Made by a program: the position numbers and the translations under genes. Below, piece by piece: positions 29,633 to 49,772 of a stretch of DNA of 62,204 bases. Below the pieces are notes generated by a model. The model saw only the letters and a list, made by a program, of their open reading frames with translations, was not told the DNA's origin and did not search any database. Each line of letters starts with the position of its first letter. The first letter of the stretch is position 1. Source of the DNA: Anaerolineae bacterium (GTDB lineage Bacteria; Chloroflexota; Anaerolineae; Aggregatilineales; Phototrophicaceae); contig JAHDWN010000037.1 of assembly GCA_023382675.1 (NCBI GenBank), forward strand, positions 1-62,204, in the 5' to 3' direction.

Positions 29633-32600
29633 TCATGAACCCGTTTCGGCCCGCGCTGCTGCCATCATCCCGGCCAGCGTCACGTCCCAGATGCGCGCCG
29701 CCTCGAAGTTTGTCCACGTCAGCAGCCGTGTCTCGTCGCTGTTCCAGGCCGCAGTCATCACCCAATCTGGATGATTGAGCAGCAGGATCGCCTCGCCCGT
29801 CGCCGCATCCCAGAGGCGAGCGGTATTGTCCCACGCCCAGCTGAGAATGCGCCGCCCGTCCGCGCGCCACGCCGCTCCCTGCACGCTCGCCGTGTGGGTC
29901 ACGCGCACCAGCGTCGTGCCGGTCGATGCATCGCCGACCTCGACTGAGCCGTCGTCTGACCACGACAGCACGCGCGTCTCATCCGGACTCCAGGCCGCCC
30001 CCAACACCCGACCATTGCGCTGCCCAAACCGCACCTGGCGCTCGCCGGTCGCCGCGTCATAGATCTCGAGGTTGCCCGCGCCGGTTGCCACGAGAATCCG
30101 TGTCTCGTCGGCGTTCCAGACCGCTGCTTGGGCGAAATCGCTCGCCATAATGCCGACGATGTCTTCTGTGCCGACGAACACGGGTGCGAAGACCGAGCTG
30201 CCATCCGCCGTGTTCCAGAGGTGAAGCGTCCCATCGAAGCTCCAGGAGAGAACGCGGGACTCGTCGGCGCTCCAGAGAGCGCCAATGAGCCGATTGTCGT
30301 GCGGCATGTTCACCAGCGACTCACCCGTTTCTGCATCCCAGATGTGCAGCACGCCGTCGTCCGTCCAATGGAGAACCCGGCGGCTGTCGGCGCTCCAGAC
30401 TGCGCCGCGCGGCCCCAGGATCATCTGGTTTGGCAGCGGCAGGTCTTCGCCCATCTGCGCGACCAGATGACCATCCGCCGCGTCCCAAACGCGCAAAACA
30501 CCCATGAACGTCCAGGTCGCCACGCGCCGACCATCTGGGCTGAACGCCATCCCGCTGACACTCGACGATTGCAGATCGTCGTGGCGCAGGATATACAGCG
30601 CGTCCGCTTCCGTCTGTTCCGGCGGCGCGCTGCCAATCTGTACATCCCAGCCGTAGACCGTGCTCTCGCTGTCATGCGTCAGGAGGCGAGTCTCATCACT
30701 GCTCCATGCTGCCTGCCATACCCCATCCGGCAGCGTGATCGAAAGCAGAGGCTGACCCGTGGCCGCATCCGCCACCGCGGCGCTACCACCGTCCTGCGTG
30801 CGTGACCACGTCAGCACGCGGCTGAAATCCCGACTCCAACTTGCACCGTTGCGTGCATCGACCACAATCGCGTTCGCCCCCGCGCCGGTATCCCACAGCC
30901 GGATGCTGCCATCCTGTGTCCAGGCCAGAACGTGCCGCGCCGTCTCATCCATCTGCGCCCCGCCGACGTCGATCTGGTTGTACGGGTCGGCGCTCTGCGT
31001 CTGGAACGGGAGATTCACCACAAGCGTATCGTTCGTCTCACCCCAGACGCGCACCCGATCCTTGCCCCAGCTCAGCAGTGTTCGCCCGTCCTCGGCGAGC
31101 CACGTGCCCATCGTCGGCGGGCTGAACGCATCTTCGGCAGCGGGCGTCGCGTGGTGCAGTGCTCTCCATAGTCCGCCGTCGCTGCTGAACCACTGTTTGA
31201 TCGTACCGTCCCTCGACCAGGTGAGGATGAGACGCTCATCCTGAACCCAGCGCGCGCCCACCACCTGCGCATCATGATGCAGCGTCAGCAGTCGCTCGCC
31301 CGTGGTCGCGTCCCAGACACCCGCCGTACTATCCAGCGACCAGGTGAGAATGCGGTTGCCGTCCTCCGGCTCCCAGGCCGCGCCAAATATCTCGTTGTCG
31401 TGCACCAGGCTGAGCAGTGCTTCGCCTGTCGCTGCGTCCCAGACATGCGCCGTCGAGTCACCGCTCGCCCAACTCAGCACGCGGCTGCCGTCCGCATTCC
31501 AGACCGCGCCTGCCACGGGGAAAATCTGCGTCATGCCGTCGTCGAATGTCACCGGCGCATGTTCCATCGAGGCGAGCAGTGTGCCGCTTTCGATGTCGAA
31601 CACGCGCACCGTGCCATCCTGCCCCCAGACGAGCGCACGCTGTTCCGCTGGATCCCATGACGCTCCAGCCGCCACCGACCCGGTCAGGTCGAAGAGCCTT
31701 TGCAGAGTCCCGGTTTCCACATCCCACAACGCGGCATACGAAATTCCCCAGGTCAGGATCTGCGTGCCATCCTGCTTCCAGATCGCCCCTGTCGTCGCTA
31801 ATGTATATTGTAGCGTCTGCACGAGCGCGCCATCCGATGCATCCCAGATTTTGATCTCATAGCCACTGTCCTGGGTCAGAATATAGCTTCCATCCGGACT
31901 CCAGAGTGCCGTCGTGATGTAGCTGTATCCCGCTGGATCATGTTCCAGCGTCAGCAGCCGCTCGCCCGTCGCCCCGTCCAGAACCACGGCGCTGGCGGTC
32001 TGCCCCCAGGCCAGCAAGCGGGTGTGATCCGGATTCCACGTCGCGCCGTACAACCGCGCTCCGAAGGAAACATCGAAGACGATGCGCCCCGGCGTGCTCA
32101 GCGCCGCGCTCAGAACGTACTCGCTCTCTGGCACAAACACCGTCGGGTAATCAGCCAGCGAGTCCAGCGCGAGTCGCATTGCCGCAGACCGGTTGCCTTC
32201 GTCGAGCGCCCCTTGTGCCCGATTTGCAGTCAGGCGTGCCCCGCTGCGCATGACATCGAGGCCGATGCGAGTGCCTTCCGCCTGTGCTGTAGCCACGCTT
32301 TGCTGTGCGCTGATCGCCTGGCTGACCGCGCCGCCGCTCGCCAGCAGCGCCAGGACGCCCACGAGCGCCGCCGCAATCGCCGTCCGGCGCAGCCGCCGCG
32401 TCCGCCGCTGATCTTCTTCTGCGCGCTGCGCCCGCATATCCTCGGCTGCCCGGCTTGCGTTGACGAAGGCGCGCTGCTCAGCGGTGAAGCGCACTTTGTC
32501 GGCGCAGCTCTCCAACTGCGTTTCTGCGGATGCCAGTACGTCCGCACTCAGGAGCGCGCCAGGGCTGCGCCCACTTGTCTCCCAGGCACGCGCTTGCAGC

Positions 32601-33091
32601 AGCAGCTGCGTGTGGGCATGGACGCAGGCCGGGTCGCTGTCGACTGTCTCGACCAGCGCGCTGGCGGTGGCATCTACAGCGCCGCCGAGCTTCTCATGGT
32701 TGATCCACTGAATGCTTTTGAGGGCTTCCCAGTTTTCACGGGCGAGGCTCTCGATGGGTTTCATTTCGTCGTTGGTGTACCAGCCACCGATCAGGTCGCC
32801 TTCGTCGATGGCGCGGTAGATCAGAGGGATGATCCGTTTGCCTTGCCGCCGTGCGTGTGCGATCTCGCGCTGGCAGTAGACCGAATTCAGCGAATCCGGG
32901 CTGATGACGAGCACGAAGTTGTTCGCACTCTCGATCCCGGCGCAGATTTCGTCCCACCACTTGGTCGAGTAGTCGATTCCCTGCCAATCCACCCAGGCTT
33001 CGCGCCCGCGCGCTTTGAGCGTCGTCTCAAGCTGGCGAACAAAGGCTGTATCCACACGCGAGTAGGAAATGAAGACATCATAATCGGCCAT
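29633..33091 (-). CDS. TIR domain - transmembrane - WD40 repeat protein
   Basis: 1152 residues. An N-terminal TIR domain (1-~130; DVFISYSRVD, box VDWQGID) retains the glutamate typical of NAD-cleaving TIRs (E76 in YCQRE). A helical linker (130-235) contains HTQLLLQARAW, seen in other TIR-WD40 proteins. RRTRRLRR then leads into one TM helix (about 236-257). The rest is roughly 18 WD40-like blades of ~45 residues (pattern AAWSPDETRVLSW then VWDAATGE). The 890 residues after the TM contain no Cys; the N-terminal part has four. Positive charges before the TM put TIR inside and the propellers outside. GAGGAG precedes the ATG. Confidence 0.88.
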   Translation of the reverse strand: MADYDVFISYSRVDTAFVRQLETTLKARGREAWVDWQGIDYSTKWWDEICAGIESANNFVLVISPDSLNSVYCQREIAHARRQGKRIIPLIYRAIDEGDLIGGWYTNDEMKPIESLARENWEALKSIQWINHEKLGGAVDATASALVETVDSDPACVHAHTQLLLQARAWETSGRSPGALLSADVLASAETQLESCADKVRFTAEQRAFVNASRAAEDMRAQRAEEDQRRTRRLRRTAIAAALVGVLALLASGGAVSQAISAQQSVATAQAEGTRIGLDVMRSGARLTANRAQGALDEGNRSAAMRLALDSLADYPTVFVPESEYVLSAALSTPGRIVFDVSFGARLYGATWNPDHTRLLAWGQTASAVVLDGATGERLLTLEHDPAGYSYITTALWSPDGSYILTQDSGYEIKIWDASDGALVQTLQYTLATTGAIWKQDGTQILTWGISYAALWDVETGTLQRLFDLTGSVAAGASWDPAEQRALVWGQDGTVRVFDIESGTLLASMEHAPVTFDDGMTQIFPVAGAVWNADGSRVLSWASGDSTAHVWDAATGEALLSLVHDNEIFGAAWEPEDGNRILTWSLDSTAGVWDATTGERLLTLHHDAQVVGARWVQDERLILTWSRDGTIKQWFSSDGGLWRALHHATPAAEDAFSPPTMGTWLAEDGRTLLSWGKDRVRVWGETNDTLVVNLPFQTQSADPYNQIDVGGAQMDETARHVLAWTQDGSIRLWDTGAGANAIVVDARNGASWSRDFSRVLTWSRTQDGGSAAVADAATGQPLLSITLPDGVWQAAWSSDETRLLTHDSESTVYGWDVQIGSAPPEQTEADALYILRHDDLQSSSVSGMAFSPDGRRVATWTFMGVLRVWDAADGHLVAQMGEDLPLPNQMILGPRGAVWSADSRRVLHWTDDGVLHIWDAETGESLVNMPHDNRLIGALWSADESRVLSWSFDGTLHLWNTADGSSVFAPVFVGTEDIVGIMASDFAQAAVWNADETRILVATGAGNLEIYDAATGERQVRFGQRNGRVLGAAWSPDETRVLSWSDDGSVEVGDASTGTTLVRVTHTASVQGAAWRADGRRILSWAWDNTARLWDAATGEAILLLNHPDWVMTAAWNSDETRLLTWTNFEAARIWDVTLAGMMAAARAETGS

Positions 33092-33945: not shown

Positions 33946-34810
33946 GAGCGTCTTCCTGGCGGGCATTGATCAAGGCGAGCACGACGGCTTCGAGCGTATC
34001 TTCTTCGATCTCGATGCGGCTGACGCGCTCGTCCAGGTGGTAGCGCTGCAAGAACGCGGGCAGCGCTTCCGGGGTATTGGCGATGGTCTCGCTCTCGACT
34101 GATCCGCCATTGGTCACGCGGACGGTCGTCCTGCCGCGTCGAAGCAGGCCGCGCGGCGTATCGCAGGCCAGCACGACGCCATCGCGCATGACGGCCAGCC
34201 GGTCACAGTAAAGCGCCTCGTCCATCTGGTGTGTGCTGATGACGAGGGTCACACCCTCGCTCGCCAGCTTGTGGAAGTAGGCCCAGAACGCCTCACGCAG
34301 CTTGGGATCGACGCCCGTGGTTGGTTCATCCAGCAGGAGCAGGCGTGGCTTGTGTACCAGCGTGCAGGCGAGCGATAGACGCTGCTTCATACCGCCGGAG
34401 AACTGGTGCACCGGGCTGTGTTCGCGTTCGCGCAGGCCGGTGAAATCGAGCACGGCGCTGATCTCTTCCTCCAAATTGGGGATGCGGTGAGCGCGCCCGA
34501 AGAAGCGGATGTTATCGCGGGCGGAGAGATCGTCGTAGAGCACAGGCGATTGGGGCATGTAGCCGATCTGGCGGCGCAGCGCGCGCTTCTGCGTGTGCGG
34601 ATCGAGATCAAGCACGCGCGTCGAGCCGCCGTTCGGGCGCAGCGAGCCGATCAGCGATTTGATCAGCGTCGTCTTGCCCGCGCCGTTCGCACCGAGCAGG
34701 CCGAAGATCTCACCCTGGTGAATGCTCAGCGTGACGCCGCGCAGCGCCTCGATCTTGCCGTAATGCTTGCGCAGATTGTCAACGACAATGGCAGCAGCGC
34801 CTTGTTCCAT
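33926..34810 (-). CDS. ABC transporter ATP-binding protein (CcmA/NatA-like exporter)
   Basis: 294 residues with Walker A GANGAGKTT, signature FSGGMKQRLSLACTL, Walker B LLLLDEPTTGVD and H-loop ISTHQMDEA. A ~70-residue C-terminal extension (TTVRVTNGG and LEAVVLALI) is typical of ABC-2 exporters of the drug-resistance group. It is the first gene of a two-gene operon. A structured RNA with a terminator lies 125 bases upstream in the same direction, so its expression may be attenuated. Confidence 0.92.
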   Translation of the reverse strand: MEQGAAAIVVDNLRKHYGKIEALRGVTLSIHQGEIFGLLGANGAGKTTLIKSLIGSLRPNGGSTRVLDLDPHTQKRALRRQIGYMPQSPVLYDDLSARDNIRFFGRAHRIPNLEEEISAVLDFTGLREREHSPVHQFSGGMKQRLSLACTLVHKPRLLLLDEPTTGVDPKLREAFWAYFHKLASEGVTLVISTHQMDEALYCDRLAVMRDGVVLACDTPRGLLRRGRTTVRVTNGGSVESETIANTPEALPAFLQRYHLDERVSRIEIEEDTLEAVVLALINARQEDAHVVHPE

Positions 34811-34848
34811 GACGAACGTCCTTGGGGGAGCGTTTAGAACAGCCGTCG

Positions 34849-34854
34849 ATTATA
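34849..34854 (-). promoter_or_regulatory. Possible -10 element close to the exporter operon
   Basis: TATAAT on the - strand 39 bases before the ATPase ATG; no convincing -35 at 15-18 bases. It may give low basal transcription independent of the upstream RNA. Confidence 0.3.
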
Positions 34855-34921
34855 ACGCGGAACACAGCGCATCGTGCGGGCGGGGAGGCGCTTTGGTGCC
34901 GGGCATTCACGCGTCATGCCC

Positions 34922-35120
34922 AGACAAACGAAATGGCCCCCGTGCAGCGCGGGCGCACGGGGGCCGATATATTTTAGAGACGTTTTTCGCCACGTCTCAG
35001 GGCATCTGCTGTTTCGCTGCCTCTCTGGGCAGCACGCGACTTCCGTCGCGTTAGCTAAAATTAATTGTGGTAACTAATTTTTCGGCTTCATCATCTCAAG
35101 TTGAGTGATTTCAGCCTACA
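34922..35120 (-). ncRNA. Candidate structured RNA (leader or small RNA), ~200 nt
   Basis: Between a near-consensus promoter (35127-35154) and a strong terminator (34935-34965), the - strand would make ~200 nt rich in hairpins. These are ACGCGAC/GTCGCGT closed by a GGAA loop (35034-35051), GCTGCC/GGCAGC with a 6-base loop (35015-35032), and GAGACGT/ACGTCTC (34977-34998). Near the 5' end is GGCTGAAATC...GATGAAGCC. A six-codon frame (MMKPKN, stop) lies near the 5' end. I recognise no Rfam family; 6S RNA, T-box, TPP and SAM riboswitch motifs are absent. It may be a free sRNA or an attenuator of the exporter operon downstream. Confidence 0.55.
34935..34965 (-). terminator. Strong hairpin terminator, 125 bases before the exporter operon
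   Basis: GGCCCCCGTGC and GCACGGGGGCC form an 11-bp perfect GC stem with a 9-base loop. On the - strand it is followed by ATTTCGTTTGTCT. A second hairpin (GGGCAT 34901-34906 with ATGCCC 34916-34921) comes just after. It is flanked by A/T on both sides, so it could work in both directions. Confidence 0.7.
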
Positions 35121-35126
35121 CCCTAC

Positions 35127-35154
35127 ATTATAGGAAGATTAAAAGGGTTGTCAA
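35127..35154 (-). promoter_or_regulatory. Near-consensus sigma-70 promoter
   Basis: On the - strand TTGACA (35154-35149), a 16-base spacer and TATAAT (35132-35127): both hexamers are perfect. The start site would be near 35120. It is one of the strongest-looking promoters in the window and drives only the structured RNA and, by read-through, the ABC exporter. Confidence 0.75.
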
Positions 35155-35290
35155 ACAGATCACACATCTGTGAACGGATGATTATGCACAATGACCAAAT
35201 ATTTCGTCATTGTGAATCCGCTGTGCCATATTTAGCCGGATCACCCCGCGCGATTTTCCACCTCTATCCACAAGATTATCTGTCTGCCGC

Positions 35291-36214
35291 CTAATCAAAA
35301 ATTCGGTGCAAGAACGTTGCCAGTTCCTTATCGAAGAGATAGGGCGCGACGACATGGCCTGCCAGCCGATCTAGCACCAGTTCCACGCTCACCCGCCGGC
35401 GGATGAGAATTCCGGCATATTCGTATGACTCCTCGTAGGGCACAACGCTGTCGCCTGCGCCATGGATGAGCAGATGCGGCGGCTCATTGCCATCGACCCA
35501 GTAAAATGGCAGCATCTCCAACTGCATCCGTATGGCATCCGGCAGTTCCAGCGCGCGCCATTCGTTGATCGGCGTCTCGCGCAGAGTCGAGGCAATCGTC
35601 AGCACTTCAGTGGGCGCAACGTCCGGGATTTCGTCCGGCGCATTTTCGAACGCCTGGATCACGTACTCCGAAAGCGCCTGGAAAGCCCCGGCGTTGGCGG
35701 CGACGCCGCTCAACCGCGCATCTTCCGGCAGTGCATAGGGGCAGTCGGGCATGAAGCGTGCCGGTTCATCGATGGCGGCCAGCCACGCGCTGACCAGACC
35801 ACCGTAGGATGAGCCAAACACCGCCACGCGCTCCGGGTCGAAGCCCCAATCCGTTGCGCCCTGGGTGTACGTCCAGGCGAGGGCGCACAGGGCGTCCGCA
35901 TAAGCGTCCGGCAGTTCGGTGTAGTAGCGGACGGCGACCGCGACATAGCCCTCATCGACGATCAACTGCGGGATGCCGCTGCGCACGTGATCCGATTTAT
36001 CGCCCGGCGAGCCGTGAAACATGAGCACGACCGGGTAGGGCGGCTCGACGCCGACGGGCAGGAAGACATCGACGACACGGTTGCGGTCGCCTTCGTCGCC
36101 GTAAGAGACGTTCGAGCCGTCGGGGAACAGACGACGCGGCTGCGCAGCGGCAGCCGCGGCGATCCACAAGATGACCCAGGCACAGATCGAAGTGAACAGC
36201 CAGCGTGCCTTCAT
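35291..36214 (-). CDS. Secreted alpha/beta-hydrolase (esterase-like)
   Basis: 307 residues from ATG 36214, 6 bases after GGGAGG; the long upstream frame is not coding. A signal peptide (1-~24, WILWIAAAAAAAQ-like) precedes an alpha/beta-hydrolase fold with oxyanion motif MFHGSPGDKS (about 66-75), nucleophile S136 in GSSYGG and the late His in LAGHVVAP. It resembles BD-FAE/dienelactone-type esterases. It is likely exported and acts on an ester outside the cell; the substrate is unknown. It is transcribed away from the TetR gene. Confidence 0.83.
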   Translation of the reverse strand: MKARWLFTSICAWVILWIAAAAAAQPRRLFPDGSNVSYGDEGDRNRVVDVFLPVGVEPPYPVVLMFHGSPGDKSDHVRSGIPQLIVDEGYVAVAVRYYTELPDAYADALCALAWTYTQGATDWGFDPERVAVFGSSYGGLVSAWLAAIDEPARFMPDCPYALPEDARLSGVAANAGAFQALSEYVIQAFENAPDEIPDVAPTEVLTIASTLRETPINEWRALELPDAIRMQLEMLPFYWVDGNEPPHLLIHGAGDSVVPYEESYEYAGILIRRRVSVELVLDRLAGHVVAPYLFDKELATFLHRIFD

Positions 36215-36307
36215 GATCGGCCTCCCATTCAGTCGTAACATACGTCTCACGAAGATTACTCTCAGATAGGCGTTCCGGTTGTCTGCAACTGTGGCAAAAT
36301 TGACCGC

Positions 36308-36334
36308 TTGACAAAATAATGAACTACGTATAAT
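36308..36334 (+). promoter_or_regulatory. Promoter of the TetR gene
   Basis: TTGACA at 36308-36313 and TATAAT at 36329-36334 (15-base spacer; TAATAT two bases later gives 17). The palindromic operator begins 3 bases downstream and covers the start site. Confidence 0.65.
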
Positions 36335-36336
36335 AT

Positions 36337-36351
36337 GTGAACACTGTTCAC
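36337..36351. promoter_or_regulatory. TetR operator, copy 1
   Basis: GTGAACACTGTTCAC, a perfect 7+1+7 palindrome placed at the transcription start of the tetR gene. The same arms recur in front of the MFS gene at 37061. Confidence 0.8.
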
Positions 36352-36372
36352 AATTTGAAATATGTTTGCACC

Positions 36373-36999
36373 ATGAAGACCAGAACACCGCGCGAACGCC
36401 GGCAGGAGCGCACCCGGCACGACATCTTGACCGCCGCCATCGACATCATCGCTGAAGATGGCGCCGATCAGTTGTCTTTGCGCGAAATCGCCCGGCGTAT
36501 CGATTACAGCCCGGCGGCGCTCTATCGCCATTTCGACAGCAAAGAGGCAATTGTCGATGCTGTCTGCAACGAAGCCAATCGCCGTTTGGGTGACTCACTC
36601 GCCGTTGTGCCGGAAACACTGCCGCCGGTCGAGTATCTGATCGAGCTGGGCATGGCCTACCTGCGCTTCGCCGACGAGAATCCGCAGCACTTTCACTTCA
36701 TCGCCACCTGGCAGATTCCCATGCCGCCGGATGTCACGCGTGAGGACATCGAACAGGCCGCTGACAACCCGGATGATCCGTTCTCACGGCTTTACCGGGG
36801 CATTCAGCGCGGGATCGACGCCGGGAAGCTGCACGTCAGGCCGGGCTATGGCGCACTGGAGATGGCGTTCAGCGTGTGGGCGCTGGCACATGGGATGGCG
36901 GTTCTGCAAACGCAGCGCCTGGGGCGGATGCCGATCGATTTCCCGGCGGCGAATCGGCAGGCGTTCGCGGACTTCATCACCGGGATGGGCAGCGCTTAG
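36373..36999 (+). CDS. TetR/AcrR-family regulator
   Basis: 208 residues from ATG 36373 (MKTRTPRERRQ); in-frame codons upstream lie in the operator. The N-terminal HTH is clear: RHDILTAAIDIIAEDGADQLSLREIARRI then SPAALYRHFDSKEAIVDAV. The C-terminal ligand domain carries a TetR_C-type ending (WALAHGMAVLQTQRLGRM). With identical palindromes before itself and before the MFS gene, it very probably represses both until its ligand, likely a transported compound, binds. Confidence 0.92.
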   Translation: MKTRTPRERRQERTRHDILTAAIDIIAEDGADQLSLREIARRIDYSPAALYRHFDSKEAIVDAVCNEANRRLGDSLAVVPETLPPVEYLIELGMAYLRFADENPQHFHFIATWQIPMPPDVTREDIEQAADNPDDPFSRLYRGIQRGIDAGKLHVRPGYGALEMAFSVWALAHGMAVLQTQRLGRMPIDFPAANRQAFADFITGMGSA

Positions 37000-49690: not shown

Positions 49691-49772
49691 TGGGGAAGGA
49701 GGGACTCGAACCCTCACCTCGTGAGAGACATGATCCTAAGTCATGCGCGTCTGCCAATTCCGCCACTCCCCC
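49691..49772 (-). tRNA. tRNA-Leu (anticodon UAG)
   Basis: On the - strand an 82-base cloverleaf starts GGGGGAG and ends CTTCCCC plus discriminator A. The anticodon stem CATGA/TCATG frames the loop CTTAGGA, giving anticodon TAG. There is a long class II variable arm and a T arm GAGGG-TTCGAGT-CCCTC. CCA is not encoded. Its 3' end is duplicated at 44486-44504. Confidence 0.93.

Follow-up and report, generated by a model that had tools for sequence, protein, structure and literature searches.

The intergenic region upstream of an ABC exporter gene in this Anaerolineae genome probably harbors a free-standing noncoding small RNA gene that, as read from its sequence, would have its own sigma-70-type promoter and intrinsic terminator. 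Its comparison with a relative suggests that the RNA is most likely under selection and a lineage-restricted orphan, seen in two genomes, and we think that it probably regulates as a free RNA and does not switch the adjoining transporter gene. One copy is present in its own genome (6.4 Mb, 110 contigs), on contig C37, which in its entirety is the stretch of 62,204 bases that we analyzed and refer to as the window. The other copy, also single, is found in G002, a congeneric metagenome-assembled genome (Anaerolineae isolate SJ143), with 84% identity over a 239-base query by BLAST. A preliminary description of this DNA had left the choice between a free small RNA and a leader of the exporter; the former is supported, in that promoter, RNA, and terminator form one conserved block while the flanking genes change, and the latter is not. 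The own promoter and terminator are thus conserved as a unit despite differing neighbors, as judged from one comparison species. We propose that the RNA would be strongly transcribed, would end at its terminator, and would act as a free molecule.

Promoter, fold, and terminator

The promoter of the RNA gene lies on the minus strand (35154-35127) and consists, as the preliminary description had it, of perfect TTGACA (35149..35154) and TATAAT (35127..35132) hexamers, separated by a 16-nt spacer and both identical in G002. It is the sole perfect hexamer pair with a spacer of 16–18 nt in the 62,204 bases of the window, compared with 0.01 expected from shuffles. Directly upstream of the -35 hexamer is a dyad, CAGAT-N5-ATCTG (35156..35170, minus strand), whose arms are kept in G002 and whose spacer differs. 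This dyad is a possible operator of the RNA promoter; it is the single copy in the window at 0–1 mismatch, yet 1.8 copies are expected by chance, and the signal is therefore weak. Farther upstream, a 17-base inverted repeat (88%) at 35184-35217, between the end of the hydrolase gene and the RNA promoter, is not kept in the alignment with G002. The promoter of the TetR/MFS genes carries a perfect dyad of its own, TGTGAACA-N-TGTTCACA, at 36336-36352 directly behind the -10 box, which by its sequence is a likely TetR operator. An operator common to the RNA and TetR was rejected because the dyad at the RNA promoter is a different one.

Based on the positions of promoter and terminator, the RNA is predicted to span about 195–200 nt (34922..35120, minus strand). 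The claim of a highly structured RNA of about 200 nt is well supported by folding: the segment 35120-34926 folds at -82.4 kcal/mol (z -7.00), and 0 of 200 shuffles fold as well. With the terminator removed, the RNA still has z-scores of -5.43 (window) and -3.79 (G002), and in neither case did any of 200 shuffles fold as well; the stretch from the terminator to the exporter (34921-34811) has an unremarkable fold (z +0.42). Four hairpins had been described; stable hairpins are indeed present, but the single-sequence fold shows five before the terminator.

The 5' domain (35053..35116, minus strand) is modeled by RNAalifold on the two sequences as a stem (35116-35110/35059-35053) that closes a hairpin (35109-35090). 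All 13 pairs of this model are kept in both sequences, two of them changed on both sides and three on one side. When the copy of the window is folded by itself, a different 5' fold is favored, composed of a GGCU/AGCC stem and a hairpin at 35081-35057, and this window-only fold breaks in G002 at 8 of the 55 pairs of the whole model, all within the 5' domain. When seven substitutions were placed randomly in the 26 paired columns of the 5' model, no pair was broken in 0.025% of 20,000 trials, a figure that overstates the support because these two sequences had also served to select the model.

The three hairpins and the terminator of the 3' half are shared by the two species. The hairpins, all on the minus strand, are ACGCGAC/GTCGCGT (35034..35051), which carries the GGAA loop reported earlier and has GAAAA in G002; GCTGCC/GGCAGC (35016..35033), whose loop differs in G002; and GAGACGT/ACGTCTC (34977..34998), in which one A-U pair is G-U in G002. 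The loops of all three vary between the species, as do the bases at the edges of both linkers, and the linkers themselves hold two single-stranded stretches that are identical in both, AGCAGATGCCCT (34999..35010, minus strand) and, before the terminator, AAAATATATC (34966..34975, minus strand), which we propose as candidate contact sites. In an RNAalifold-based model of the RNA, from which one helix of two pairs was left out, 46/46 pairs hold in both sequences (92/92 cells paired). Two pairs, both in the 5' hairpin, are changed on both sides and four on one side in this comparison of only two sequences. By its pair count the model is equaled by 113 of 500 shuffles because there is little signal in two sequences, which cannot prove covariation.

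The intrinsic-terminator hairpin (34935..34965, minus strand) has 13 pairs and one bulge and is identical in both species. Its 11 uninterrupted pairs, followed by two beyond the bulge, agree with the 11-bp GC terminator of the preliminary description; by a terminator scan the stem has 12 pairs, of which 10 are GC. The T-run behind it is broken (ATTTCGTTTG), and so some read-through is possible. The scan found three terminator-like sites in 3 kb, where 2.5 are expected, and the site count alone is therefore no evidence.

Conservation and distribution

Identity between the window and G002, measured in steps of 20 columns, is 9–14/20 over the 100 bases upstream of the -35 hexamer and 16–17 in the promoter; within the RNA it is 11–13/20 in the 5' part and 18–20/20 in the core, and it drops directly behind the terminator (10, 8, 4, 6, and 5 of 20). 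The RNA core (35066-34932) is identical at 127 of 136 columns. The adjoining syntenic block, composed of the TetR and MFS genes and two further genes, has 77.7% identity over 3.8 kb, and 0 of its 3,666 windows of 136 columns reach the value of the core (mean 0.77, maximum 0.912, or 124/136). Of the nine substitutions in the core, one (the A-U to G-U change) is among the 76 paired columns and eight are among the 60 unpaired ones (Fisher p 0.011).

The distribution of the RNA is narrow. By BLAST, the full-length RNA is present in 2 of 61 genomes, its own and G002. Model R1 matched three of 98 family genomes at E<=0.1, one of which (G025, E 0.007) was dropped as a match inside an ABC-transporter reading frame, leaving 2/98. 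Among 396 genomes drawn evenly from the class, R1 returned the own copy and two weak matches, with none reported for G002; the G185 match in this draw covers the terminator hairpin alone. Model R2, which excludes the terminator, matched two of 400 phylum genomes (the own copy and one weak match) and, at E<=1, seven of 40 relatives (the two true copies and five weak matches). The matches in G044, G006, G050, G005, G042, and G715 score 16.5–23.8 bits, compared with 149–154 for the true copies, and have no promoter-like pair above 9/12 within 200 bases upstream; we judge them to be chance matches, a judgment short of proof. A pattern scan of genome contigs gave the G002 record as its sole match, and searches of plasmid and phage collections yielded no homologue; three viral contigs fit a pattern, none of which matched R1. 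The larger scans used stricter filters, and their counts cover the best candidates scored; diverged homologues may have been missed because R1 and R2 rest on two similar sequences.

Known RNA classes and possible mode of action

The preliminary description had recognized no known riboswitch motif, and Rfam 15 concurs: searched at the gathering score and at E<=10, it gives nothing at or above the gathering score for the RNA, the best sub-threshold match being PyrR (24.1 bits, E 0.35), whose cut-off is 54 bits. The window's only Rfam match at the gathering score is a tRNA (49691-49772, minus strand). Among the titles and abstract openings surveyed, none names such an RNA, and to our knowledge regulatory RNAs in Chloroflexota are little charted.

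Orphan intergenic small RNAs are a general class with their own promoter and intrinsic terminator, and the RNA described here resembles them in its own promoter, its terminator, its strong fold, and its narrow distribution; it differs in that it has no Rfam family and that a search of 21 genomes of the lineage, its own included, found no Hfq (control matches were obtained in 5 of 14). Other classes fit less well. 6S RNA (RF00013) is similar in length, about 190 nt; however, 6S RNA is a long duplex with a central bubble, whereas this RNA is a chain of short hairpins, and 6S RNA was rejected given that the one RF00013 match of the genome lies elsewhere (G000:C15:9852-10026), with none at the RNA locus. 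Terminator-type riboswitch or attenuator leaders of exporter genes, guanidine/ykkC leaders among them, share with this locus a structured RNA and terminator ahead of an exporter, but here there is no stable link to the exporter and no Rfam match. The antitoxin RNAs of type III toxin-antitoxin systems (ToxI kind) are similar in their arrangement of promoter, RNA, and terminator followed by a gene on the same strand, with a small ORF and a PIN gene in that position in G002; this class was rejected because the RNA has 0 families of direct repeats of at least 10 bases and the downstream gene changes. With the small ORF where an antitoxin gene would lie, the PIN gene of G002 resembles a type II arrangement. 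A CsrA-type sponge was rejected because the GGAA loop is lost in G002.

How a free RNA of this kind would act can be proposed from its conserved parts. We suggest AGCAGAUGCCCU and AAAAUAUAUC as contacts because these single-stranded stretches are invariant in contrast to the varying loops of the 3' half, and we posit that the stems would hold them up for pairing with target mRNAs. Pairing with mRNAs without Hfq would be the most likely action, to which we give about a third of our confidence within the free-RNA reading, and binding of a protein would be about as likely; pairing, if any, would be Hfq-independent because Hfq was not found. A search for complements of AGCAGAUGCCCU in the two genomes revealed no clear target: at <=1 mismatch, the RNA's own genome has 33 sites (reversed control, 26) and G002 has 53 (control, 58), the RNA gene included. 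Among 15 + 15 loci with such a complement, one orthologous pair is found besides the RNA locus, and it lies inside an 834-aa reading frame and is therefore no good sign of a target.

Within the same reading, the free RNA may instead serve as a protein scaffold, sponge, or decoy, working through its folded shape and not by antisense pairing. The conserved stems, the variation of all three loops that precede the terminator in the 3' half, the failure to find Hfq, and the lack of a clear seed excess are consistent with this action; however, the two single-stranded stretches are also invariant. More speculatively, and with lower confidence still, the RNA may represent an undescribed class of structured RNA of the Anaerolineae, a lineage without detected Hfq, that binds a protein or pairs without a chaperone by way of the two invariant stretches, and that stays with the TetR/MFS exporter locus, which it might tune.

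Neighboring genes and the question of a leader

The gene that follows the RNA in the window encodes an ABC exporter ATPase (PF00005; 33926..34810, minus strand), a neighbor that we judge to lie outside the unit of the RNA. The reported distance and orientation are correct, with 125 bases in the same direction from the terminator (34935) to the ATG (34810), and no minus-strand ORF of at least 60 aa lies between the hydrolase and the exporter, in accordance with the statement that no protein gene intervenes. Between RNA and exporter there is a TATAAT (34849..34854, minus strand) with a poor -35 (2/6), possibly a separate start for the exporter. In the window, an alpha/beta hydrolase gene (BD-FAE/S9 type; 35291-36388, minus strand) separates the RNA from TetR. 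A TIR-domain protein with WD40-type beta-propellers is encoded farther downstream, two genes from the exporter ATPase (29633-33091, minus strand); PADLOC gives it weak matches, with TIR models only.

In G002, the TetR-MFS side is kept and the hydrolase gene is missing there. An 82-aa ORF with no Pfam match follows the terminator and overlaps a PIN-domain gene, beyond which lies a RIO-kinase gene, with no ABC exporter; nor was a relative of the exporter ATPase found in G002 at E<=1e-80 among the best 24 of 170 candidates. With the best 24 candidates per genome scored, relatives with 56–65% identity (E<=1e-80) are present in eight other genomes of the family, and at these eight loci R1 with filters off scores at best <=10.3 bits, compared with 226.4 for the window copy. 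Upstream on the strand of the exporter, a TetR gene is found at seven of the eight loci (L085, L086, and L088-L092, with L087 showing none), and the TetR proteins of these seven have an AefR-like C-terminal domain. At five loci TetR ends <=10 bases from the exporter start, and 226 and 155 bases lie between them at L085 and L086, respectively.

These comparisons bear on the question of whether the RNA is a cis-acting leader, either a riboswitch or a peptide-stalling attenuator, whose terminator would be opened to express the ABC exporter. The same strand, the 125-base distance with a terminator in between, the imperfect T-run, and a 5' domain with two competing folds are what such a leader might show, and the spacing at L085 and L086 leaves room for some other leader. 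We nevertheless consider it improbable given that the RNA of G002 precedes other genes and that eight genomes with an exporter relative yielded no such RNA. The 125-base spacer is also poorly conserved, the exporter may own a TATAAT, and the six-codon frame put forward as a stalling peptide (MMKPKN, 35094-35074) has no counterpart in G002. The folds that were made, of the RNA itself, show no anti-terminator pairing; their alternatives are confined to the 5' domain and the terminator arms are invariant.

That the short transcript instead encodes a peptide, or has a dual function, is very unlikely. Frames in the sense of the RNA have <=28 codons, and besides MMKPKN, which is absent from G002, two GTG frames come into question, both open in both species (12 codons, and 28 versus 24 codons). 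In the 12-codon frame (VLPREAAKQQMP and VLPQEAANEQMP), however, 3/3 differing codons change the residue, G002 has AAAAG in place of GGAAG before the GTG, and a stable stem overlaps the start; the longer frame passes through the terminator hairpin. Neither is judged to be a gene. On the plus strand, ORFs of 95 aa (34767-35054) and 67 aa (34874-35077) overlap the RNA, and any frame across the GGAA loop is shifted because the loop is one base longer in G002. A chance structure or a decayed remnant without function would fit the presence of the RNA in just 2/98 family genomes, but we give it very little credence in view of core conservation above each of 3,666 adjoining windows, a perfect promoter that is kept, and substitutions that avoid stems.

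The free-standing RNA that we favor is otherwise an ordinary find, a new orphan small RNA, and the main result is the correction that it is no exporter switch. As a structured RNA with a strong predicted promoter in genomes without detectable Hfq, it would provide a test case for how small RNAs act in this lineage.
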